Origin: a virus
IMG/VR virus record: IMGVR_UViG_3300046694_000157
Coordinates: 1 to 34,343 of that record
Strand: one strand, 5' to 3'
Length of the DNA stretch: 34,343 bases
The notes under the pieces are model-generated. The model had not been told where the DNA came from. It worked only from the letters and a program-made list of their open reading frames with translations, and searched no databases. Positions 2,951-34,301 of this stretch are shown here, one piece after another. Both the position numbers and the translations under genes were made by a program. How positions within the stretch are numbered: the first letter of the stretch is position 1; every line of letters starts with the position of its first letter.

Positions 2951-3189
2951 TGGTGTGTCACTCGATGGTGGTTCGGCAGTTCCTTTTCAGACTCGATAAA
3001 GCCGGTGCTTTTGGCGTCTCCATCCATGGCTTTGATGAACATGACTTCCACTTTCGCGGAGTCCACCAGGACTTTCCCGACTTCGGCGATCGCCTTCGCC
3101 CGCTCGATATCCATTGGCTTATCTTCGTCTTGAAGAGCTTCCAAGGTGGCAAACAAGTGGTTTCGTAGATCCGTCATTTTGTTATTCAT
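2947..3189 (-). CDS. Conserved small phage protein, function unknown
   Basis: This 80-residue, mostly helical acidic protein has the pattern MTDLRNHLFATLEALQDEDKP followed by an ERAKAIAEVGKVLVDSAKVEV helix. I recall similar proteins in the early regions of several Pseudomonas phages, where no function is assigned. The start could be M1 or M5 (MTDLRN). It overlaps the HNH endonuclease gene by 8 nt upstream and the next ORF by ATGA downstream, placing it in a translationally coupled stretch of the early operon. Confidence 0.7.
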   Translation of the reverse strand: MNNKMTDLRNHLFATLEALQDEDKPMDIERAKAIAEVGKVLVDSAKVEVMFIKAMDGDAKSTGFIESEKELPNHHRVTHQ

Positions 3190-3877
3190 GGGCGGCCTCG
3201 ATTGCGCGCTTTAGTTTGCCGAGCTGGCGAATAGTGGTTTTGAGTTCTTCCGGGTAGCGGTGAATAGTGTTCCGCCGCATGAGTTCGCCCCGGGTGATCA
3301 GTTCAAGGTTCTCAACGTTGCAGTTGGTTCGGTCACCGTCTCTGAAAACCAGCAGGTAACCTGTGGCGATTGGCCCGTGGACCGCCTCCCAATTGCGTCG
3401 GTGGGTCCACTCCCATTCATTCGGCTCGGCGACTTTGATTTTCAGGTACCCGTCTGTGGCCATGACTTCCGTTCCGATCGGAACATGGTTGTGCGGTAGC
3501 CGGCCGCTGGTGAATTGCGTTTCGGCAGATCTGCCACCGGCGGCAAATGGCTTACCCTTGTTCCAGGTCCCGTGTCCTTTTTGAAAGCGAGTGGCCATGC
3601 CAGGGTTGTTATCGTTACGAAGACGGCCGGAATGTTCGCCGGCTAGAAATTCGGCGCTGCGCTTCAATCCGAGCTCTTTTGCTTTCCCATAAATCGCTGA
3701 CTTTGGACGGCCAAGCGTTTCCTGGAGCTGAGTCATCGGCGTGTCTGGATACAGTGCCGTCAGGCGCGCCATCTCGGCCGTTGTCCAGAAACGCCGGCGT
3801 GTGGTCGACCGGTCGTCTTTCGCTTCTGCAGTGCTTGCTCTGGCACGCTCCAGCGCTTGTTGTGCAATAGGGTTCAT
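3182..3877 (-). CDS. HNH endonuclease with N-terminal SANT/HTH-like domain
   Basis: The 231-residue protein has two parts. Residues 25-75 (FWTTAEMARLTALYPDTPM..LGRPKSAIYGKAKELGLKR) look like a Myb/SANT or HTH DNA-binding domain. The C-terminal half has an HNH_3-type nuclease core: WTHRRNWEAVHGPI, then the DGDRTNCNVENLELITR segment carrying the N and metal-binding positions. Such proteins occur as homing-type nucleases or as ordinary phage early genes; a nuclease helping packaging is less likely, since it is far from the terminase and in the early operon. It starts with ATGA overlap to the upstream gene. Enzyme class is well supported, biological role is not. Confidence 0.88.
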   Translation of the reverse strand: MNPIAQQALERARASTAEAKDDRSTTRRRFWTTAEMARLTALYPDTPMTQLQETLGRPKSAIYGKAKELGLKRSAEFLAGEHSGRLRNDNNPGMATRFQKGHGTWNKGKPFAAGGRSAETQFTSGRLPHNHVPIGTEVMATDGYLKIKVAEPNEWEWTHRRNWEAVHGPIATGYLLVFRDGDRTNCNVENLELITRGELMRRNTIHRYPEELKTTIRQLGKLKRAIEAAHE

Positions 3878-4528: not shown

Positions 4529-7234
4529 TTACTCCCGAAAAATGAAGCAGCGCATGGTGGAAGGGATGTGGGCGGTTGGTGCCATTTCTTGCTGCCGGGC
4601 GCGGATCGCGCTTTCCACGCGTTTCTGCGTGTCCAAACATTGGTGGGCACGGCAGTCTTTGAGCAGGCGTCGCAGCACGGCCAGATCCGGAATTCGCTGG
4701 CGGTGTTCCAGGGCGACCTCGGCGAACTGGTTGAGGTTGATGGCAATCACCCCGGCTTTTTTGCTGTGGTTGACCATCGGCGCAGAAGGCAGCGATTCCA
4801 AGTAGTCAAACACCTGCCAGAACTCGTTAACTTCCTTCGGATCGGTGCTGATAGCCGCCTGGCGCTCGTTGGCAGCTGTCAGAAGGTATTTGCGACAGGC
4901 CTGGACCATGTGGTCTGGGATTGCGATGACAAGCTGCAGGCAATCCAGCAGGGCCAGCATCATGCTGTGGTTCTTGATGACCCGATCAGATGCCAGGTTA
5001 CGGGTGGCCCAAAGCTCGGCGCGGTACTTGGGATACAGTTCCGCGAAGCGCTTAAGCACGAGCGGTTCGGCGCGCATTGCCTTCACCATGAAGTGGCTGA
5101 CGTGTTCCAGTTCGGTCTGGACGATTGCATCAGCAGCTTTGCGACTCGCATCAGTGATCACTGGCTTGAGAAACGGCAGTCGAACGATACGGCTGATGAT
5201 CGCTTCGTGGCCGGTGACGATGGCGTTCTGAGCGATCACGATGGACGCGCGAAACGGCGGCTCGTAGGTGTCGTTGCTATTGGACTTGACGCCCCGTGTA
5301 CGCAGAGTGCCGCCGCCATAGAAATCCTTGAACTGGTCCCATTCGAAGGCCTTGGTGTTGTCCTCGTTGGTGTTTCGGTCAGCCTCGAGGAGAACCAATG
5401 GGAGGTTGGCCACCTGGCCCATCGCCCGGCTCAAGCCCGAGAACGAGCTTTTGGCCGGGTCGAAGCCTTCATAGATCCGCCCGAAGAGCTTCCAGATAAA
5501 TTTGATCAGCGTGGTTTTGCCCGAGTCGGGCTCGCCTGACATTTCCAGGAACGGGAAGCTCTCATGCTCTGCCCGGATCTGCTCGGCGAATAACGAACCG
5601 AACCAGTAGGTGAGGGCCAGAACTCCGTTCTCGCCGAAGACGGTCCAAAGGTTCGGCAGCCAGTCTTCGCGATAGCCCTTGCTGTCCAAGGCCATCTTGA
5701 GCTTTACCGACTTCATGAGGCATTTCACCCGCTGCTTGCCGAATTCGAAATAGTCCTCGTCGTTGGCCTTGTAAACAGATCCTCCGTGGATGGCGATGTC
5801 GTTGAAGATGTACGCCTTGTGATCACGGCTGTAGCCCAGAAAGTCGATGGTCTCGACCGTTTTCAGGCCGTGGGTCTGCCGGATGATGATCTGGTCGAGG
5901 TGTTTCTGAGTGCCCATCCACGTCCCACCAGAGAACATGAGTCGAGTCTTGAATTCACTGCTCGATGAAATCTGTTTGGGTGTGAACGTCCAGTTTTCAC
6001 CGTCGTCCTGATCGACGCCGGTAACGTGAATGTAAAACCACGCTTCGTTCGTAACGTCGTTCACCTGTTTGTAAAGCGCCTCAAACCGGCAGTTGGCCAG
6101 AAGCTTCAGGCTGCAGACGTTCTGCAGCACCTTGCGGCGGGATGCCTTGTCGTTGAGCTGTTGGTCTTCGTGGTCTTCGCTTGTTGCCAGCGCTTTCTGT
6201 TCCTCTTCGAGCCTCGAGAGGTCGAACTTCGCCCAGTAGGTCTGGTTGCCGAAATCAAAAGCGAACTCTGGGAAACCTTCCTCCCACGTGTAGATCAGCA
6301 GCGCCTTCTCTTTCGGCGAGGGAGCCAACAGCAATTCACCTTCATGGCGTGCAGCATCCAAATCCCGCTTGCGCTTGTCGTTGCGTGCCTTGCCTTCTTC
6401 TTCGAATTGCCAGCGCTGGTGCAAATCGTTCCAGTCGACTTTCTTATCCCGCTGGGGAATGAGCGCAGCCTTGCACGTGAAGCCCATCTCACGGGCCTGC
6501 TTCACCCAGCGCAGCAGGTAGCCGCGTGCCGTAGGCTCGTTATCTAGGCCCCAGACCAGAGTGGGAAGATTGCCCGGACGCTGCTCGAGCAGTTGCTTCA
6601 AGGCTTCGATCGGGAAGTTCACGCTCGACATGGCTGACACCGCGTCGACGCTGTTTTGCACTAGGGCAACGGCGTCAAAGATGCCTTCGACTATCCACAG
6701 TTCTTTGACGGTGGCCAGGTCCACACTAGGCGGGCACCACCATTCACCCTGGGCGCTGTATTTGGGCTTGAAGCGAGCCTTCATCTTGCCAAATCGGGAA
6801 GGACGATCGATCAGGCGTTCCCAATAGCCACCGTTAGGCAGGGTGAATCGGATCGTGGCGCTGGACTCGTTTGTTTCGTGGTTTACGTAGTTCTCTTGGG
6901 TGAACCAACCGGTCATATTTCCCGCGTTCAAGCCCCGGGCAAACTCCAAGTACGCACGGGCCGTAACGGTCGGATCATTGTCCGTTGCCGGCGCTCGCTT
7001 GCTCCAATCCTCGAACAGGTCCTCGTAGATTTCTTTGACGTGTTCGATATGACCGCAGCGCTCCGGCCGACCACAGCGGATCTGCCAAGGCTTGTCGTGG
7101 CGGGCATACAGCTCTTTCTTATTGCAGGCAGGGCAAACGCCGCCTCGCATGTAATTCGTGCCTACACGTAACTTCAGGCCGAAGTCGTCTTCCAGCCGCT
7201 GAAGTACTTGAGTTCGGATGTCTTCATTCATCAT
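4529..7234 (-). CDS. Phage replication primase-helicase (zinc ribbon, Toprim, P-loop ATPase)
   Basis: This 901-residue enzyme should prime and unwind phage DNA. Residues 34-62 form a primase zinc-binding domain (C34, C37, C54, C60). A Toprim fold follows, with E183 in LWIVEGIFDA, D231 in LVWGLDNE and a KVDWNDL motif near 265. The C-terminal half is a P-loop ATPase: GEPDSGKTT at 567-575 is the Walker A motif, LPLVLLEADR at 611-620 the likely Walker B. The architecture is like that of P4-alpha-type or other fused primase-helicases. It is the largest early gene, downstream of the YmfL-like gene and sharing ATGA with the small ORF upstream. Two adjacent ATG codons (7234 and 7231) could start it. 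Confidence 0.88.
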   Translation of the reverse strand: MMNEDIRTQVLQRLEDDFGLKLRVGTNYMRGGVCPACNKKELYARHDKPWQIRCGRPERCGHIEHVKEIYEDLFEDWSKRAPATDNDPTVTARAYLEFARGLNAGNMTGWFTQENYVNHETNESSATIRFTLPNGGYWERLIDRPSRFGKMKARFKPKYSAQGEWWCPPSVDLATVKELWIVEGIFDAVALVQNSVDAVSAMSSVNFPIEALKQLLEQRPGNLPTLVWGLDNEPTARGYLLRWVKQAREMGFTCKAALIPQRDKKVDWNDLHQRWQFEEEGKARNDKRKRDLDAARHEGELLLAPSPKEKALLIYTWEEGFPEFAFDFGNQTYWAKFDLSRLEEEQKALATSEDHEDQQLNDKASRRKVLQNVCSLKLLANCRFEALYKQVNDVTNEAWFYIHVTGVDQDDGENWTFTPKQISSSSEFKTRLMFSGGTWMGTQKHLDQIIIRQTHGLKTVETIDFLGYSRDHKAYIFNDIAIHGGSVYKANDEDYFEFGKQRVKCLMKSVKLKMALDSKGYREDWLPNLWTVFGENGVLALTYWFGSLFAEQIRAEHESFPFLEMSGEPDSGKTTLIKFIWKLFGRIYEGFDPAKSSFSGLSRAMGQVANLPLVLLEADRNTNEDNTKAFEWDQFKDFYGGGTLRTRGVKSNSNDTYEPPFRASIVIAQNAIVTGHEAIISRIVRLPFLKPVITDASRKAADAIVQTELEHVSHFMVKAMRAEPLVLKRFAELYPKYRAELWATRNLASDRVIKNHSMMLALLDCLQLVIAIPDHMVQACRKYLLTAANERQAAISTDPKEVNEFWQVFDYLESLPSAPMVNHSKKAGVIAINLNQFAEVALEHRQRIPDLAVLRRLLKDCRAHQCLDTQKRVESAIRARQQEMAPTAHIPSTMRCFIFRE

Positions 7235-7482
7235 GATTTTTTCGCTGCTTTAAGGCTGAGGCCGAGGCTTTGTGTGAGTGCGCCGATCAGGTGTTTCTGA
7301 GCGGCCATTACAGGGCTATTCGCAAGGATCGATCCGTGGCGCATGCCATCGGGAATCAGGCGGTACTGGTCTGCGTACCAAAGGTCATTGAGGCTGAGAC
7401 GGTATTGCTCGCGCAGGTTGGCCAAGAGCGCTTGAGCCTGATCGGGTGTCAGTTTTGCGTTGATGTTCATGGCGTTTTCCAT
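7231..7482 (-). CDS. Small early protein upstream of the primase
   Basis: This 83-residue protein begins MENAMNINAKLTPDQAQALL. The ATG at 7482 is chosen because GAGG lies 7 nt upstream; a TTG two codons earlier is less likely. It is helical with no membrane segment. It shares four bases (ATGA) with the primase-helicase start, so it may couple translation of that gene or act with it in replication. No family is recognised. Confidence 0.65.
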   Translation of the reverse strand: MENAMNINAKLTPDQAQALLANLREQYRLSLNDLWYADQYRLIPDGMRHGSILANSPVMAAQKHLIGALTQSLGLSLKAAKKS

Positions 7483-7554
7483 CGTCAAACCTCAATTTCG
7501 GGCGCAGCTCACCCAAACCCACGGGGTGGGGCAGGCGGATTTATTGGTTGGGAG

Positions 7555-7920
7555 TTACGGTGCGGCTACGCGGAAACGACCGTTGTCCGGTGCGTTGAGG
7601 ATGCGTTCGTAGATCAAGCTGACAGGTACGGCCCACGCATTGCCGGTGGCCGGGTCGATGATGACGGTGTGGGTGGATGTACTGCTGACGATGTCCAGAC
7701 GCTGTCGATCGCGGACAGCGGTCATATCGCTGCAGGCCAAATGCACCAGTTTTTCAGCGGTCTGTGTCAGCACGTCATAGTCGCTGACAAGGTGCTGAAC
7801 CGCGCGGTCGAATAACTGTTGATCGTCGCCCAGATGCTCGCAATTGTGGCGCTCCAAAAACACGAGCGCGGCCGCTTTGAGTACGTCCTGATATTCCCGT
7901 ACGGCAGGCAACTGAGTCAT
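7555..7920 (-). CDS. Early-operon hypothetical protein
   Basis: The 121-residue protein begins MTQLPAVREYQDVLKAAA at 7920; the upstream in-frame extension to 8106 lies inside the YmfL-like gene and is rejected. The second half (TVIIDPATGNAWAVPVSLIYERIL) has the look of a small beta-strand domain. Its ATG overlaps the stop of the YmfL-like gene (ATGA), showing coupling. Function unknown. Confidence 0.65.
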   Translation of the reverse strand: MTQLPAVREYQDVLKAAALVFLERHNCEHLGDDQQLFDRAVQHLVSDYDVLTQTAEKLVHLACSDMTAVRDRQRLDIVSSTSTHTVIIDPATGNAWAVPVSLIYERILNAPDNGRFRVAAP

Positions 7921-9638: not shown

Positions 9639-10658
9639 TCAGTTGGTTGGGTCAGCCACTTGCTCATCCCGCCAAGCGATGCGCCGGTCTTCGCGTAATG
9701 TGTCGTTGAGTTGGCTGAACAACTGGCAGATCGGCCGAATCTCGTTACTGGTGTACACGCGATCGATCTTTTCGATGTCGCCAAAGCCAGCGCTGTTTTC
9801 AGGGATGATGCCGGCCAACGCGGGGTTCATGCGCCACGCAGCGATCACGTCGTTTCGGGTAATGTTCTTGACCTTCTCCAGCTCGTCCTTGGCTTGAAAG
9901 TCCCCCACCGGGATGATCTGGATGGCCTTCTCGGCACCGCCGGGGATGTTCACGAACATCGATCGGAAGTTGCCCACACCCTTGCTCGCGCTGATTTGAT
10001 CGCGCAGGGACTCTTCGTCCTCCTCGGTGAGGTTCGGATCGTTGGTGTAGAAGATGTAACCCGCGTGCGCGCCATTGCTGTAGTAGCGGCGGCGGAAGAG
10101 GGTAGCGGCCTCATTCAGCAACAGCGCCTGCATGCCGCCGAGGTAGTCGGGCACTCCGTAGATGTTCTGTTCCACGTCGTAGTTCATGACGTGCTCGACT
10201 TCATCCTCTTCGAATTCCACTTTCTTCCCGTCCGGCAGCAGCATCACAAATCCGCCACCAACCCTGACCCGCATGTTGATAGTCGGCAGGTGCTCCATTT
10301 GCAGCACCTGGCCGAATGCATTGCGATTGCGCAGAAAGTAAGCCTCGCCAAAAACCATGAAATCCAACCCGGCTCTGCTCATGGTCTGTACCGAACAGCC
10401 ATCTGAGGCAATGAACTCACGCAGCAGCAGGTTGCGCTTGAACCCGGGAATGGCGCCGTGGTGAGCGTTGGCGCGTAGCAGTTTGGCAAGGCCTTGGCGT
10501 GACACTGGCGGCGTGTAGGTCTGGCCGTCGTGGGTAGCGAACACGCCCAGGTAATGGCCGATGTTCTCGGTCAAAACCTGTTCCGGTGCACCGAATGAAA
10601 ACGCCCGCATCGGACCTGGTACTGGTTTTTGCGGCTGGTTTATTGCTGGTTTGCCCAT
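9639..10658 (-). CDS. Q: Portal protein, P2 gpQ family
   Basis: The 339-residue protein forms the dodecameric portal ring through which DNA is packaged. It follows P2 gpQ closely in layout: a basic, proline-rich N terminus, then AFSFGAPEQVL, the YTPPVSRQGLAKLLRANAHH segment, GLDFMVFGEAYFLRNR, IYGVPDYLGGMQALLLNEAATLFRRRYYSNGAHAGYI and a GDIEKI stretch near the end. Length is like that of P2 (344). It is transcribed leftward with the terminase. Its first 242 nt are overlapped in another frame by the unusually long terminase ORF, and no strong ribosome binding site is visible before its ATG. Confidence 0.95.
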   Translation of the reverse strand: MGKPAINQPQKPVPGPMRAFSFGAPEQVLTENIGHYLGVFATHDGQTYTPPVSRQGLAKLLRANAHHGAIPGFKRNLLLREFIASDGCSVQTMSRAGLDFMVFGEAYFLRNRNAFGQVLQMEHLPTINMRVRVGGGFVMLLPDGKKVEFEEDEVEHVMNYDVEQNIYGVPDYLGGMQALLLNEAATLFRRRYYSNGAHAGYIFYTNDPNLTEEDEESLRDQISASKGVGNFRSMFVNIPGGAEKAIQIIPVGDFQAKDELEKVKNITRNDVIAAWRMNPALAGIIPENSAGFGDIEKIDRVYTSNEIRPICQLFSQLNDTLREDRRIAWRDEQVADPTN

Positions 10659-12480
10659 GGGTGCTTGGTCCGCTGAGTGTGTAGCGGCTACGCCGCTGTT
10701 TGTTTGTGTTGAGAGGTTCGTGGGCTAAGGCGTGCATGATGGCCCAGGCGATATCGGCATGACCGGAGGCGTCAGTGCGCGACGCGCTGTACGTGACTTG
10801 GCCACCGCCGGTGGTGCCACGCTTGATCGTCAGGAAGGCCTGCGCGATGTCATTCCAGCCGGCGTCCCACTCGATCCTGCTGCCCTGAATCGTGTCCTGC
10901 GCTTTGAGCACCAAGGTGTTTTTGGTTTCGAGGCTGTAGTGGATCGAGGTCGCACGCGGGTAAAAATCGCGCACCAGGTCGAACACGCCGTAACCGATGC
11001 CGGTGGTGTCGATGCCGATGTGCTGCACGTTGAAGCGCTCTGTGAGTTTCTTGACCTGCTCGGCCTGGTACTTGAACGACTGCCCACGCCAGCTGTGTTT
11101 CTCCAGGATCCGGAACTTGCCGCCGTCCTCGAGCGGCGGGGCAATGACCACGCAGCTTGCATCGTCGCGGGTGCGGCTCGGGTCGTAGCCGATCCACACG
11201 GGGCTGTTTCCGAATGGGCGCGGGTCGTCAGGGTCGTAGTCGGTCCACAACGACAGGTCGGAGTAGCAGCGCTCCAAGTCGACCAGGGAAAAGGCGCTTT
11301 GCGTGCTGTCGATGAACTTGCACATGAACAGCTGCTGAAACTTGTCCTCGTCGTATTCCAGCTGCAGCTGCTCGAGGTCGAACAGATCGCAGCCGCCGGC
11401 AATGGCGTCGAGGATGGTGATGACCTTGCGCCATTGCCCGTCCGGACAAAGTGAGCCAGCCGCTGCTTGGGCTTCGCTAGGCCATGGATCTTTGGCGTTT
11501 TTGCGTTTGCTGTTGCGGAATTTCTCGCCAGTCCAGAACGGGTACGCCTGATGCGATACGGCGCTGGGCGTTGAAAAGTAGGTTTTGCGCCATTTCTTGT
11601 GGGTCGCCATGGCGCTGGCGACGGTGTTCAGTTTCTCGAAGTCGCGGATCCAGAAGTACTCGTCGACGTAGACGTGGCCATGGTGCCCCTGGGCGGTGCT
11701 GCTGTTGGTGCTGAGAAAGCGCAGCTCGGCCCATGGCTTGCCGTCTTTGCTCAGCACGATCGGGTTGCCGGTCAGCTCGAGGCCGAACCACTCTTGGGCG
11801 AACGACACGATGTAGCTACGGAAAATCTCCGACTGGGCTCGGCTGGCCGACAGGAAGATCTGGTTGTCACCGGTGAGCACGGCGTCCATGAACGCTTCGC
11901 CGGCGAAGTAATAAGTCAGGCCGACCTGACGGCTTTTCAGGATGTTGCGGATCCGCGCTGTCAGCGGGTTCTGTTTGGCGGCGAATAGCTCTTTCTGATA
12001 GCCGTACATCTTGCTGATGAACTTGTCGAGAAAGTCCACTTCCGTCAGGTCACCGACTTCGTTTTTGGCCTTCTTCTCTCGTTTTTTCCCGCCCTTGTCG
12101 CTGCGATCGCCTCTGTCCCGACGTTCACTGCGTTGATTATCTTGGCGCTGGCGATCGTCCGCCGGCGGATCACCGATCGGCGCCGGTGCCGGTTTCGCCG
12201 ATTGCTTCAACAGCCGTTCGCGAACGGTGGTCAATCGGTCGAGCTCGTCCAGATCGGCCTTGGTCAGCGACGTGGTTTTGTCCAGGAGGAGGGTGATCCG
12301 CCGGCCGACGGCGGTCAGCGGTTCTTCGTCCGACAGCATGTCGTCCCACTCGCCCTGGCGGATCCAGTAGTAAACGATCCGGATGTTGGGCAGGGACAAT
12401 TGCGCCTGAATTTCACGCGGCTTGCAGCGGCGCAGATACAGGCGTTTGGCGGCTTCTTTTAGTTCGGGGGCGTATGGCAT
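10417..12480 (-). CDS. P: Terminase large subunit (ATPase/nuclease), P2 gpP family, extended C terminus
   Basis: This subunit cuts and translocates phage DNA into the prohead. Visible parts are an N-terminal HTH (residues 15-40, RRCKPREIQAQLSLP), a Lys/Arg-rich linker, an adenine-binding/Walker A region (ILKSRQVGLTYYFAGEA), a Walker B-like HVYVDEYFW and a nuclease segment starting GYDPSRTRDDAS. The family-like part ends at about residue 603 (RRSRYTLS). The ORF then runs 84 residues further, over the portal start, with low-complexity Arg/Pro/Thr-rich sequence; a single GGA to TGA change at 10671 would end it normally. Divergent from the scaffold gene. Confidence 0.93.
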   Translation of the reverse strand: MPYAPELKEAAKRLYLRRCKPREIQAQLSLPNIRIVYYWIRQGEWDDMLSDEEPLTAVGRRITLLLDKTTSLTKADLDELDRLTTVRERLLKQSAKPAPAPIGDPPADDRQRQDNQRSERRDRGDRSDKGGKKREKKAKNEVGDLTEVDFLDKFISKMYGYQKELFAAKQNPLTARIRNILKSRQVGLTYYFAGEAFMDAVLTGDNQIFLSASRAQSEIFRSYIVSFAQEWFGLELTGNPIVLSKDGKPWAELRFLSTNSSTAQGHHGHVYVDEYFWIRDFEKLNTVASAMATHKKWRKTYFSTPSAVSHQAYPFWTGEKFRNSKRKNAKDPWPSEAQAAAGSLCPDGQWRKVITILDAIAGGCDLFDLEQLQLEYDEDKFQQLFMCKFIDSTQSAFSLVDLERCYSDLSLWTDYDPDDPRPFGNSPVWIGYDPSRTRDDASCVVIAPPLEDGGKFRILEKHSWRGQSFKYQAEQVKKLTERFNVQHIGIDTTGIGYGVFDLVRDFYPRATSIHYSLETKNTLVLKAQDTIQGSRIEWDAGWNDIAQAFLTIKRGTTGGGQVTYSASRTDASGHADIAWAIMHALAHEPLNTNKQRRSRYTLSGPSTHGQTSNKPAAKTSTRSDAGVFIRCTGTGFDREHRPLPGRVRYPRRPDLHAASVTPRPCQTATRQRSPRRHSRVQAQPAAA

Positions 12481-16292: not shown

Positions 16293-16962
16293 CACGTTCG
16301 AGCTCGACGTCCGGGGCTACCTCGGCGTGCGCGAGCAAATGGCGCTACTGAGTCTGCCGCCGCAACTGCGCCGGCGTCTGCTGAACAACGTCTCCAAGCG
16401 CGTGCGATCGATGAGCCGCAAGCGTGTGCGCGACCAGCAGAACCTGGACGGTTCGCCCTTTGAGGCACGCAAAGGTTCGGGAAAGGGCAAGAAAAAGATG
16501 GAGGCGGGGTTGGCCAAGCTGATGCAGGTCACCAGCGTCAGTGCCGACGAAGCCGTGCTGGGCTGGAAAAATGCCCTGACCAGTTGGGTCGCGGCGCAGC
16601 AACACAATGGTGTCAGTGAGCGCCGTACGGCCGCCGAAATGAAGCGGTGGAATACCGTTCCCGCCGGCCTGGCTGCCACGGAAAAGCAGGCTAAACGCCT
16701 GCGCAAGTTAGGTTTCAAGGTTCGCCAGGAGGGCAAGAAGTCCCTGACCAGACCGTCAGTGGCTTGGATTCAAGAACACGTCAACTACGCCAGGGCGGGG
16801 CTGCTGATCCGCATCCTGGACGACGAAAAAACCGAGAGCAGCGGCGCACAAAGCTGGGAGATCACTTTGCCCAAGCGCCAATTCATCGGCGTCGGCACCG
16901 AAGGCGATACCGCCTCGCTGCTGAACCAGGTGCTCCAACAAATCCTTAATTCACCCCGCTAG
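16279..16962 (+). CDS. S: Virion morphogenesis / tail completion protein, gpS-like
   Basis: The 227-residue protein, starting with GTG at 16279, has GAGG nine nt upstream and overlaps R by 14 nt. It is very basic (RRRLLNNVSKRVRSMSRKRVRDQQNLDGSPF), the signature of the phage virion morphogenesis family that includes P2 gpS and Mu gpG, which finish the tail tip facing the head. It ends with TASLLNQVLQQIL. The longer ORF beginning at 16156 lies inside R and is rejected. Confidence 0.85.
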   Translation: MAGRSTFELDVRGYLGVREQMALLSLPPQLRRRLLNNVSKRVRSMSRKRVRDQQNLDGSPFEARKGSGKGKKKMEAGLAKLMQVTSVSADEAVLGWKNALTSWVAAQQHNGVSERRTAAEMKRWNTVPAGLAATEKQAKRLRKLGFKVRQEGKKSLTRPSVAWIQEHVNYARAGLLIRILDDEKTESSGAQSWEITLPKRQFIGVGTEGDTASLLNQVLQQILNSPR

Positions 16963-30412: not shown

Positions 30413-31690
30413 TCAGCACTTCACAATCCAGAGCTGGTCCAGCTTTGTTGTATAACTCTGGCTCATCATCTCCCGTCGCATTCCCCAATTGGGCGTTGCG
30501 GGTACACCTCCAGTGCGAAGCGTCCCTCGCCCCCACCGCAAATTGATCTCATCCAGCACGCTCATGACTTTTTCTGTCGCTTGGGGTTGTGACTGGGCGA
30601 ACAGGTCATCCGTAAATTCGCCTGGCTGTCGCAGATCCATCAAGAGTACTTCGGCCTTGCTGTATTTAAAGCCCGGTCGGAATAGTCTGTGAACCGCTTC
30701 AGTTGCTGCTTTGGTCAACAGCCTGACGTCGTTGGTAGGGTAAGGCAGTTCAACCAATGCACCATTGGCGTACTTGGCTTCCTCGGGGCTGAACATGCCG
30801 GTACGGATGCTGACTCGCAACTTCTTGCACAGCGAGTTCTGCGCTCGCAGCTTTTCCGACGCACGCTGCACATAGGTAGCAACGGCTTCTTTGATCGGCT
30901 CGATAGTCGTCAAGCGCTTACCAAACATACGGCTGCTGCAGATCTCCTGCTTCGCTGGATCGGCTTCAGTGAGTTCCAGGCAAGACGTTCCCGTCAGCTC
31001 GCGCGCAGTCTTTTCGATGACCACGCTGAATTTCTGGCGCAGCGTCCTGGGATCGGCCTTCGCCAGATCCATTGCTGTCGTGATTTGCATGCCTTCAAGG
31101 TGGGCCTTCATCCGCCGGCCGACTCCCCAAACCTCACCGACATCAGTGTTGCGTAATACCCAGTCGCGTTTGACCGGATCGCAAATATCAACGACGCCGC
31201 CTGTCTGCGCCTGCAGGCGTTTTGCTGTGTGGTTGGCGAGCTTGGCAAGGGTCTTGGTGGGAGCGATGCCAACGCCAACCGGAATTCCCGTCCCTTTGTA
31301 GACCGCGGCCCGGATCTTCCGGCCGAATGCAGTCAGGTCGCCAGGAATGCCGGTGAGGTCAGCAAAGGCTTCGTCGATGCTATACACCTCGACAGTTGGC
31401 ACCATGGATTCGATGATGCTCATGACCCGTTCACTCATATCGCCATATAAGGCGTAGTTGCTGCTGAACACCTTTACGCCATGCTTGCGCAGCAGGTCTT
31501 TGATCTGAAAGTACGGTGCGCCCATCTTCACGAACGGTTTAGCATCGTAGCTGCGCGCAATGACACAGCCATCGTTATTGCTCAGAACGACGATAGGTGT
31601 CTTGGCAAGATCCGGCCGAAACACGCGCTCGCAGCTGGCATAAAAGCTGTTGCAGTCAATCAGGGCAAAGATCGGCTCACGACTTGGCAT
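30413..31690 (-). CDS. umuC: UmuC-like Y-family DNA polymerase
   Basis: The 425-residue protein is the catalytic subunit of an error-prone translesion polymerase of the Pol V type. Metal-binding carboxylates are in place: D12 (ALIDCNSFYASCERVF) and D106-E107 (VYSIDEAF). A helix-hairpin-helix region (EVWGVGRRMKAHL) and the little-finger part (KEICSSRMFGKRLT-like, near residue 250) follow; length equals that of E. coli UmuC (422). Start ATG 31690 is inside the umuD 3' end (the umuD stop is at 31677), so translation is coupled. It is controlled with umuD by a LexA box. It could serve host and phage DNA after damage. Confidence 0.93.
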   Translation of the reverse strand: MPSREPIFALIDCNSFYASCERVFRPDLAKTPIVVLSNNDGCVIARSYDAKPFVKMGAPYFQIKDLLRKHGVKVFSSNYALYGDMSERVMSIIESMVPTVEVYSIDEAFADLTGIPGDLTAFGRKIRAAVYKGTGIPVGVGIAPTKTLAKLANHTAKRLQAQTGGVVDICDPVKRDWVLRNTDVGEVWGVGRRMKAHLEGMQITTAMDLAKADPRTLRQKFSVVIEKTARELTGTSCLELTEADPAKQEICSSRMFGKRLTTIEPIKEAVATYVQRASEKLRAQNSLCKKLRVSIRTGMFSPEEAKYANGALVELPYPTNDVRLLTKAATEAVHRLFRPGFKYSKAEVLLMDLRQPGEFTDDLFAQSQPQATEKVMSVLDEINLRWGRGTLRTGGVPATPNWGMRREMMSQSYTTKLDQLWIVKC

Positions 31691-32108
31691 GGTCACGCAC
31701 GCTGTAAGTCACCACACCCCAGATCATCAACTCGTCACCTTCCATCACATAGCGCGGCGGATACTTGGTATTCGCGGACATCAGGATGATGGTGTTATCG
31801 CGCATGTGCAGACGCTTACAGATAGGTTCGGCGTTGAGCCCGGCGATGACTATATCGCCGTGTTCGGCTGTGAGGCTGCGGTTGACGACGACCAGATCCC
31901 CGCAAAATATGCCGGCACCTTCCATGCTGTCGCCCTCGATCTTTGCCAAGTAAACGTGCGGAGCTCGGATGTCGAACAATTCATCCAGGGAAATATGTTT
32001 TTCGATGTGATCAGCCGCCGGCGACGGGAACCCGGCCGGGATTTGAAATGAGTAAAGCGGGAGCTTTGCACCTCCCTCCAACAGTGGGCCAACGATAGTG
32101 ACATTCAT
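31677..32108 (-). CDS. umuD: UmuD-like S24 self-cleaving protein
   Basis: The 143-residue protein is the accessory subunit that is activated by RecA-stimulated self-cleavage. The cleavage pair is A25-G26 (QIPAGFPSP), the nucleophile S61 (GDSMEGAGI), and the general base K98 (EPICKRL); each is one position from E. coli UmuD (C24-G25, S60, K97). After cleavage UmuD'2C forms the active polymerase. The LexA box lies 24 bp before the ATG. The upstream minus strand has a TTGACC (32175-32170) as possible -35. Confidence 0.93.
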   Translation of the reverse strand: MNVTIVGPLLEGGAKLPLYSFQIPAGFPSPAADHIEKHISLDELFDIRAPHVYLAKIEGDSMEGAGIFCGDLVVVNRSLTAEHGDIVIAGLNAEPICKRLHMRDNTIILMSANTKYPPRYVMEGDELMIWGVVTYSVRDHAKS

Positions 32109-32762: not shown

Positions 32763-33209
32763 CTACAAATCCTTCTCCATCATCCTGTACGCCATGCTAG
32801 CCGTGAAAATCGATACTGTAAGAAAAAAACCTGTGAAAAAGCACTTATCCCCCTCCCGCCGACGGGCTTTGCGTCCGTTTTTTGTGCAAATCCATATGTA
32901 GTGCAAACGAACCTGCAGCCCCGGCGGGCCGTGGGGCTCTGCAGGCGATCGGTCATTTCACAGAATGCAAAGTTTTGAAGGGAAATGCAGTGCGGTTGCA
33001 CAGCTACGCACACGGCGCGCACGGAAGGGATAACGCTGGAGTGCCCGGTTTCATTGGATGGAAACTTTTAAAACGTGGATTTCTTTGTGTTTTCAAAAAC
33101 GTGCACGTTCTTTCTCAGGCGGGAATCTGCTGGGTGCGGGAGGAGGCAGAATTGCCTACAAGCCAAGCGGTGCAAGGCTTGTAGGTGTACCGCAGCATTT
33201 CCAATGATT
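32763..33209. other. Intergenic region with strong hairpin
   Basis: No convincing gene is seen. The region holds an intrinsic-terminator-like element (ACGG and CCGT around GCTTTGCGT, followed by TTTTTT, about 32868-32882, plus strand). It also holds a strong imperfect hairpin at 32912-32945, with arms CCTGCAGCCCC and GGGGCTCTGCAGG (11 bp with a 2-nt bulge, 10-nt GC-rich loop). A non-coding RNA or REP-like element is possible. The rest shows nothing. Confidence 0.45.
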
Positions 33210-33569
33210 TCACGCCTCTTTAGCGTCAATCATTCGAAGGTGAGGAAGGTTGTTCATGTTCTGAAGGCGGGTGAATTCCTTAGTCACGATCGGGATTAGC
33301 ACGCGGTTCAAAGCATCACGCAACCTCACAGCCTGGTCTTCGTTCAGCTTCTTCACGGTACCGGTCTGTCCGCTGGCACAGCACACATTGTCGGGATGAA
33401 TGCCCAGGTCATCCATGGTGCCGTCGATGTAGCCGCGTAGGTATTCGCCGCGTTGGAACAGGATCGAACTTTCGGGTGCTTCCTGATAATCCCAATGCAC
33501 CTCCCAAGCCCCGCCGCGCTTGATTACTTCGATGATGGGTACTGCTGCTTGGGACGCTGTCTTAGGCAT
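33210..33569 (-). CDS. Accessory hypothetical protein
   Basis: The 119-residue soluble protein begins MPKTASQAAVPIIEVIKRGG. It has a mixed alpha/beta look (WEVHWDYQEAPESSILFQRGEYLRGYIDG, then a helix LNEDQAVRLRDALNRVLIPIV) and a conspicuous CCASG. No motif gives a function. It is a single gene next to the TGTCAG block and reads leftward like umuDC. No clear ribosome binding site is noted. Its place marks it as an accessory (moron) gene. Confidence 0.62.
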   Translation of the reverse strand: MPKTASQAAVPIIEVIKRGGAWEVHWDYQEAPESSILFQRGEYLRGYIDGTMDDLGIHPDNVCCASGQTGTVKKLNEDQAVRLRDALNRVLIPIVTKEFTRLQNMNNLPHLRMIDAKEA

Positions 33570-33644: not shown

Positions 33645-33956
33645 GGTTGACCCCTAAATCCCTGTCAGAACATGGAGAACTGTCAGCCAATCGTCTGGAG
33701 GCCACGTATTTACTGGGGTTCAGCTCTGACAGCGGGGATGGATGTTTGTGTCAGTTTCGCCATCAAGAATATAAAACCCTTATAAATCAATGGGTTGAGA
33801 ATCTCGAATCTGACACAGCTGTTCTGTCCGGTTTTGACAGGTCGCTGACAAAGTTCTGACACTGATCGACAGCGCTGAGAGGCTTTAAATACAAGGGTTA
33901 GACAGTAGTTAGAATAGTAGTCTGACAAAACTGACAGGCTTTTGAGGGGTCAACCC
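33645..33956. repeat. 312-bp inverted-repeat-bounded block with TGTCAG/CTGACA array
   Basis: The left end GGTTGACCCCT (33645-33655) and the right end AGGGGTCAACC (33945-33955) are perfect inverted repeats; inside each, after 6 or 7 bp, comes CTGTCAG (33662) or its inverse CTGACAG (33931). Between them lie further TGTCAG/CTGACA copies at 33680, 33726, 33749, 33810, 33835, 33845, 33856 and 33922, mainly TGTCAG on the left and CTGACA on the right. About 0.1 copies are expected by chance. Overlapping short ORFs on both strands look incidental. Candidate roles are a multi-site protein-binding region (cos, replication, partition) or a miniature element. Confidence 0.7.
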
Positions 33957-34205: not shown

Positions 34206-34216
34206 CTTCATTGTGC

Positions 34217-34230
34217 TGGTGCCCCGAGGG
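34217..34230. repeat. attR: attR core inside tRNA-Leu
   Basis: TGGTGCCCCGAGGG forms the last 14 bases of the tRNA gene (complement) and equals attL at 1221-1234. It holds the CCA end and the 3' acceptor strand, so phage sequence restores a complete tRNA. Confidence 0.88.
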
Positions 34231-34301
34231 AGACTCGAACTCCCACTCCTTTCGAAAACGGATTTTGAATCCGCCGCGTCTACCAATTCCGCCATCAGGG
34301 C
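34217..34301 (-). tRNA. tRNA-Leu (anticodon CAA)
   Basis: The 85-nt gene folds as a class II tRNA. Acceptor strands are GCCCTGA and TCGGGGC, followed by A and encoded CCA. The D-arm contains GGCGGAATTGGTAGACGC. The anticodon loop is TTCAAAA, so the anticodon is CAA (reads UUG). A variable arm follows, then the T-arm GGGAGTTCGAGTCTCCC. It is intact despite integration. Genes for leucine tRNAs are frequent phage attachment sites in Pseudomonas. Confidence 0.96.

Follow-up and report, generated by a model that had tools for sequence, protein, structure and literature searches.

What role can be assigned to a dense array of TGTCAG hexamers situated just inside the right end of a prophage? The array is found in a 34,343-nucleotide stretch of viral DNA (positions 1 to 34,343 of the IMG/VR record IMGVR_UViG_3300046694_000157; hereinafter the window), which is a prophage of the HP1/phi3-like branch of the Peduoviridae. 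The gpP terminase encoded in the window (10417-12480) shows 71-77% identity to those of the Pseudomonas phages PfPro and phi3. One copy of the attachment core GGTGCCCCGAGGG is located at approximately 1222-1234, and the second adjoins tRNA-Leu at 34217 (attR, approximately 34216-34229; tRNA-Leu, 34217-34301), about 260 bp from the array. The first-pass annotation entertained three possibilities, namely a cosB-like terminase binding region, a replication or partition site, and a miniature mobile element, and considered the location beside attR to favor a phage-encoded role in DNA handling.

The array proper, from the first to the last hexamer, spans 274 bp (33663-33936) and contains nine exact TGTCAG/CTGACA sites along with two sites that carry one mismatch. 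In 2,000 shuffles of the 312-bp segment that encompasses the array, the hexamer occurred 0.14 times on average and never more than twice (the first-pass annotation gave an expectation of about 0.1); of the ten exact copies counted at that time, nine stand, and the tenth is the one-mismatch TTGACA(G) at 33834. Numbered from the last site (33931-33936, minus strand; offset 0), the exact sites on the left lie at offsets -268 (33663-33668, plus), -250 (33681-33686, plus), -205 (33726-33731, minus) and -182 (33749-33754, plus), and those on the right, all on the minus strand, at -121 (33810-33815), -86 (33845-33850), -75 (33856-33861) and -9 (33922-33927). The mirror arrangement described in the first-pass annotation is thus borne out, with the left sites mostly on the plus strand and the right sites mostly on the minus strand. 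The two imperfect sites are TGTCCG at -106 (33825-33830, plus), which is TGTCAG in PfPro and other relatives, and TTGACA at -97 (33834-33839, minus), the -96 site of the common layout described below. The AT-rich central gap harbors the sequence AATCAATGGGTTG (33785-33797, plus), an exact match to the IHF consensus WATCAANNNNTTR.

PfPro has the array at the same place (83% identity), as do a dozen viral contigs and prophages from several Pseudomonas genomes. Conservation of the hexamers in related prophages, the check proposed at the outset, is evident: across 19 related arrays, the hexamer columns are 97% conserved compared to 82% elsewhere, and 83% of the columns within hexamers are invariant compared to 38% in the rest, a level of hexamer conservation that none of 5,000 circular shifts of the sites reached. 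The hexamers are therefore under constraint; the site at -250 is invariant in all 19 relatives. The perfect 11-bp inverted repeats that bound the segment are indeed exact in the window (left arm GGTTGACCCCT, 33645-33655, plus; right arm, 33945-33955, minus), but only the right arm is invariant in the 19 relatives whereas the left arm varies and is not kept as an exact repeat, so that the terminal repeats are not the organizing feature of the array. Nine contigs that carry the primase gene and lack the array (G006, G010, G014, G019, G026, G029, G033, G043 and G044) end in or beside the neighborhood where it would be expected, and the absence is uninformative; another contig, G039, reaches past cos, and no array was found in what remains of it.

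These comparisons bear on the possibility that the segment is a miniature inverted-repeat transposable element (MITE), with terminal inverted repeats and subterminal sites for its transposase. The 11-bp repeats and the repeated internal hexamers are what such an element would display. Against this, the left repeat is not conserved, the internal layout is common to arrays with other hexamers, and every near copy examined belongs to a related prophage or phage and occupies the same place where it could be aligned. The exact array pattern was detected at 4 places in 84,980 genomes and 6 in viral contigs, and the aligned copies, one of which has a deletion, come from related prophages and occupy the corresponding position there rather than the unrelated loci that mobility would produce. 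We consider the probability of a MITE to be practically negligible. In one prophage copy (L004, around position 2340), tail-gene sequence takes the place of the left half; the junction is inside the array, and this copy is probably a deleted remnant.

Given that the PfPro primase is 95% identical to that of the window while its gpM is only about 60% identical and its integrase is unrelated, relatives were collected by primase similarity and their arrays were then examined. Phages with primases at least 82% identical to that of the window, including the recombinant PfPro, have the hexamer TGTCAG. At 73-74% primase identity (G020 and G022) the hexamer is TGTAAG, at approximately 51-54% (G032, G034, G035, G037, G041, G046 and G047) it is GGTAAT or AGTAAT, and phi3-type phages, with primases about 30% identical, carry 13-16 copies of GGAACA directly after the primase gene. 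Among the named phages, Dobby has GGTAAT, Smp131 has GGTAAC, Halomonas phage 4908 has AGGTAA and Escherichia coli phage ESSI2_ev239 has TCACAA; in PaBSM, the array, with the motif CCTTCCAC, is also located after the primase. The Mantel correlation between the hexamer and the primase is 0.75, a value that was not reached in any of 2,000 permutations, in a test that ignores shared ancestry; the five other genes compared give 0.30 (terminase P), 0.27 (Ogr), 0.23 (terminase M), 0.17 (CII) and 0.04 (the small protein at 7231 of the window).

The disregard of shared ancestry by this test is partly offset by individual recombinants. PfPro is one. In G022, the integrase, the Xis-like protein and CII are 92%, 87% and 90% identical to those of the window, but the primase is only 73% identical and the motif is TGTAAG. 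In G041, G046 and G047, terminase P is 77-84% identical, the primase only 51-52%, and the motif, GGTAAT, is that of Dobby, a phage with P2/phiCTX-like late genes whose primase is 65-66% identical to those of these three contigs. The hexamer tracks the primase-helicase and no other gene tested; the terminase, integrase, CII and other early genes have been swapped freely against it. Judging from this covariation, each array would be specific for its cognate initiator. The possibility that the hexamer follows the small protein at 7231, CII, Ogr, the HNH endonuclease, the Xis-like protein or the integrase was also explored and found no support. The HNH endonuclease gene of the window (3182-3877) adjoins the primase gene and has no match in the other phages compared.

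The same series can be set against the proposal that the array is cosB-like and bound by gpM, the small subunit of the terminase. In this lineage, cos lies between the tail genes and attP, and an IHF-like site is present in the lambda cosB as well. The probable cos was located from the ends of the PfPro record, which terminates within the motif GCACTTATCCCCCTCCCGCCGACGGGC with a 10-base terminal overlap; this motif is common to phi3, phita81A/2, PfPro and others and occupies positions 32841-32867 (plus strand) of the window, about 800 bp from the array, which argues against a cut site within the array. (A search of the window for the P2 cos sequence, allowing up to 3 mismatches, gave no match.) Proximity notwithstanding, the hexamer does not track the terminase genes: gpM is about 60% identical in PfPro, with the same hexamer, and 72% identical in G046, with a different one. 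Furthermore, Dobby and Smp131, which have P2-like late genes, possess arrays of the same layout, and the phi3 record has the array at about 7.4 kb whereas its cos motif is near the right end. A cosB function, the first of the options raised by the initial annotation, thus appears very unlikely. Between the tail genes and cos, the window encodes UmuC-like (30413-31696) and UmuD-like (31677-32108) proteins, apparently cargo as read from the translations.

The distance of about 260 bp from the attachment core, together with the Int, IHF and Cox sites annotated around attP in P2, might suggest that the array is an arm of attP, composed of integrase or Xis/Cox binding sites. Yet the window and PfPro share the array despite their unrelated integrases, G022 combines a window-like integrase and Xis-like protein with a different hexamer, and the phi3-type array follows the primase gene, which leaves an attachment-arm function hardly credible. 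The location beside attR, on which the first-pass annotation relied, is for the same reasons not the defining feature of the array. Each of these three readings, cosB, attachment arm and MITE, is contradicted by a tested feature. We also asked whether the array might serve the 119-aa gene (33210-33569) as promoter or operator and rejected this, because G022, G041 and others have arrays without a match to this gene.

The spacing of the sites is conserved along with their orientation. Thirteen common positions can be defined by their offsets from the last site, -268 (plus), -259 (plus), -205 (minus), -193 (plus), -182 (plus) and -171 (plus) on the left and -120 (minus), -105 (plus), -96 (minus), -85 (minus), -74 (minus), -9 (minus) and 0 (minus) on the right, and each phage occupies a subset of these. 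Between PfPro, with TGTCAG, and G041, with GGTAAT, 9 of 10 sites match within 1 bp and on the same strand, compared to at most 6 in 3,000 trials with random layouts; the sole PfPro site without a G041 counterpart is the one at -250, and G041 has a site at -259. For the window sites at -268, -205, -182, -121, -106, -86, -75 and -9, the G041 counterparts are at -267, -205, -183, -120, -105, -85, -74 and -9, respectively. The layout is, then, retained with base-pair precision from one motif class to another. When the Dobby array is flipped, 11 of 12 sites are common to it and G041, and these arrays partly match their own inversions (10 of 12 sites in Dobby and 8 of 12 in G041, against an average of 3.3 and a maximum of 8 for random sets); PfPro, with 4 of 10, displays no clear symmetry under this comparison.

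A scan by layout alone recovered arrays with different hexamers in phages with the same primase family and none in P2, K139 or 15 shuffles; in HP1, it yielded a single 5-site TTTAAA hit. Repeats on an Azospirillum plasmid belong beside the RepA gene of the plasmid itself and were discarded. Near-consensus IHF-like sites number 30 over the arrays compared to 8 expected and cluster in the central gap, where most arrays have one; none was found within one mismatch of the consensus in PfPro and ev239.

The protein with which the hexamer covaries is a 901-aa TOPRIM-DUF927 primase-helicase (4529-7234, minus strand), the proposed initiator, which matches phrog_1139 ('DNA primase') with 1169.9 bits and scores above the Pfam cut-offs for Toprim_2 (34.9 bits) and DUF927 (26.8 bits; cut-off 22.6). 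In the AlphaFold2 model of the 901-residue protein (mean pLDDT 83), residues 81-304 match DnaG primase cores, and residues 314-901 match SCCmec Cch (5dgk; Z 21.5, rmsd 6.7 over 450 residues) and SaPIBov1 Rep (8tch; Z 20.6, rmsd 6.9 over 433 residues), far above the next helicases and with the matches extending through residue 901. As far as the predicted fold is a guide, the primase-helicase is a homolog of known self-loading initiators. The C-terminal domain (residues 770-901; 4532-4927, minus strand) is winged-helix-like and is the proposed reader of the hexamer; one stretch within it takes the forms KDCRAH, KDGRTH and KESRSH. Modeled alone (pLDDT 89.8), it best matches winged-helix DNA-binding domains, with a weak top match to the C-terminal domain of SaPIBov1 Rep (8tch, Z 5.5); a Foldseek search with this domain returned no hit below E 0.1. 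In four contigs (L071, L075, L082 and L086), a helicase-related stretch (residues ~528-774, 27-29% identity) directly follows the primase gene and is a partial paralog in tandem; an Rfam intron was sought in this stretch and none was found.

Several known replication systems offer points of comparison. In phage P4, the alpha protein combines primase and helicase, and short repeated sites form a block of about 300 bp. The present system is similar in both the fused primase-helicase and the size of the block of repeats but differs from P4 in having a single array per phage, with no ori/crr pair, and the score of the primase-helicase against the P4-family helicase model TIGR01613 (15.4 bits) is far below the cut-off of 108.7. 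P2 gpA and HP1 Rep phages share related late genes and gene order with the window phage, but in the latter the primase-helicase takes the role of gpA; in the P2 annotation, the nick site is inside gene A. SCCmec Cch (5dgk) is the best fold match to the primase-helicase; unlike here, the primase-polymerase of the SCCmec Cch/Cch2 systems is separate, and only three iterons have been reported in the putative origin to whose direct repeats Cch2 binds (PMC7581432). SaPI Rep proteins bind iteron origins via the C-terminal domain, and these origins are located directly downstream of rep (PMC7581432). The resemblance to SaPIBov1 Rep includes the DUF927 self-loading helicase, an origin with many short repeats and a fold match over the helicase and C-terminal regions, and here, too, we propose that recognition resides in the C-terminal domain. 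The differences are that the TOPRIM primase is fused to the helicase, with no separate AEP-type primase; that the array is mostly far from the gene, beside attP, with a fixed layout and IHF-like sites; and that the hosts of the system are P2-like phages of Gram-negative bacteria as opposed to staphylococcal islands. An analogy with SV40 large T antigen and papillomavirus E1 has been drawn for SaPI Rep (PMC7581432) and extends to the short sites for a self-loading hexameric helicase, but DNA recognition is N-terminal in T antigen and E1 and no homology of the sites is claimed.

Across many related viruses, the hexamer and the replication enzyme change together whereas the spacing is fixed to the base pair, and for this reason an origin is the most likely function: we consider it very probable that the array is an iteron-type replication origin for the self-loading TOPRIM-DUF927 primase-helicase of the phage. 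On this reading, such origins belong to Peduoviridae without the gpA of P2. Of the options listed in the first-pass annotation, it is thus replication that is singled out by the covariation with the primase and the conserved layout, and the DNA-handling role suggested there holds in this form, the cosB and mobile-element options having gained no support. The arrays of phi3-type phages, which follow immediately downstream of the primase gene just as SaPI origins follow rep (PMC7581432), also argue for an origin. Several observations weigh against it: on the excised circle, the window array is approximately 3.6 kb from the primase gene and not directly downstream as in SaPIs, the fold matches of the C-terminal domain are weak, and AT-rich DNA commonly contains sites that resemble the IHF consensus.

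From these comparisons we infer binding, IHF occupancy, double-ring loading and origin firing along the following lines. After excision of the prophage, the primase-helicase would bind the TGTCAG hexamers via its C-terminal domain, and IHF-like bends in the gaps would bring the clusters of sites together. The oppositely oriented groups of sites could then place helicase rings of opposing direction on the AT-rich middle, and the loaded rings would start replication, with the TOPRIM part making primers.

The main remaining alternative is that the primase-helicase binds the array for another purpose, such as copy control, a secondary enhancer similar to the P4 crr, or partition of an episome, with initiation elsewhere. 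In the window and in most of its relatives the array is far from the primase gene, which would fit such an arrangement, although the two are adjacent in phi3-type phages, and P4 does require both ori and crr; the scans, however, revealed a single array per phage, and we regard this alternative as unlikely. Upstream of the primase gene, 4 further TGTCAG copies form a second cluster (7447-7789), which was examined as a potential partner and dismissed, as PfPro has only 2 copies there, at other positions.

If the array is an origin, as we favor, the question arises of how general this type of origin is. Iteron origins and DUF927 initiators are already known. In the searchable literature, from which the phiCTX genome paper is missing, we found no description of a TOPRIM-DUF927 fusion combined with a remote scaffold, exact to the base pair, in P2-like phages; the Smp131 genome paper, in the passages located, names the primase and no phage origin. 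The balance of probability tips slightly toward a widespread, undescribed class of phage origins, in which a fixed scaffold of about 13 positions, exact to the base pair, part-symmetric in some members and with helically phased triplets of about 11 bp and central IHF bends, persists while the hexamer is rewritten in concert at all positions (TGTCAG, TGTAAG, GGTAAT, AGTAAT, GGTAAC, TCACAA, GGAACA) as the specificity of the primase-helicase changes. Should this be the case, many P2-like phages, including Citexvirus, Smp131 and Phitrevirus relatives, would replicate from this scaffold and not by the gpA rolling circle. The proposal provides an origin and an initiator for temperate phages that have P2-like late genes and lack gpA. 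The arrays would form a naturally occurring series, with as many as a dozen sites rewritten together several times at unchanged positions, in which one can study how the specificity of an initiator shifts while its origin is retained. Origins in new prophages could be sought by layout and motif combined.

Three further repeat clusters were noticed in the course of this work. Beyond attL, outside the prophage, the window contains 6 copies of GGAACAC/GTGTTCC in 120 bp (401-522), which surround a gap element, GGCCACGGAATACGGGGCTTTCAG, resembling those inside the arrays; this cluster looks like a half or decayed origin with the phi3-type motif in the host flank, and this flank is common to contig L056 at 87%. 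In L032, a contig of a related phage that bears a TGTCAG array at one end, the other, integrase end carries 20 copies of GACAAA/TTTGTC in 245 bp (16504-16749). Finally, L059 has 7 copies of GCGATA (11484-11758) that are spaced according to the same layout over 275 bp and lie about 3.6 kb past the integrase gene; this array probably belongs to a neighboring element and would be a further motif class.
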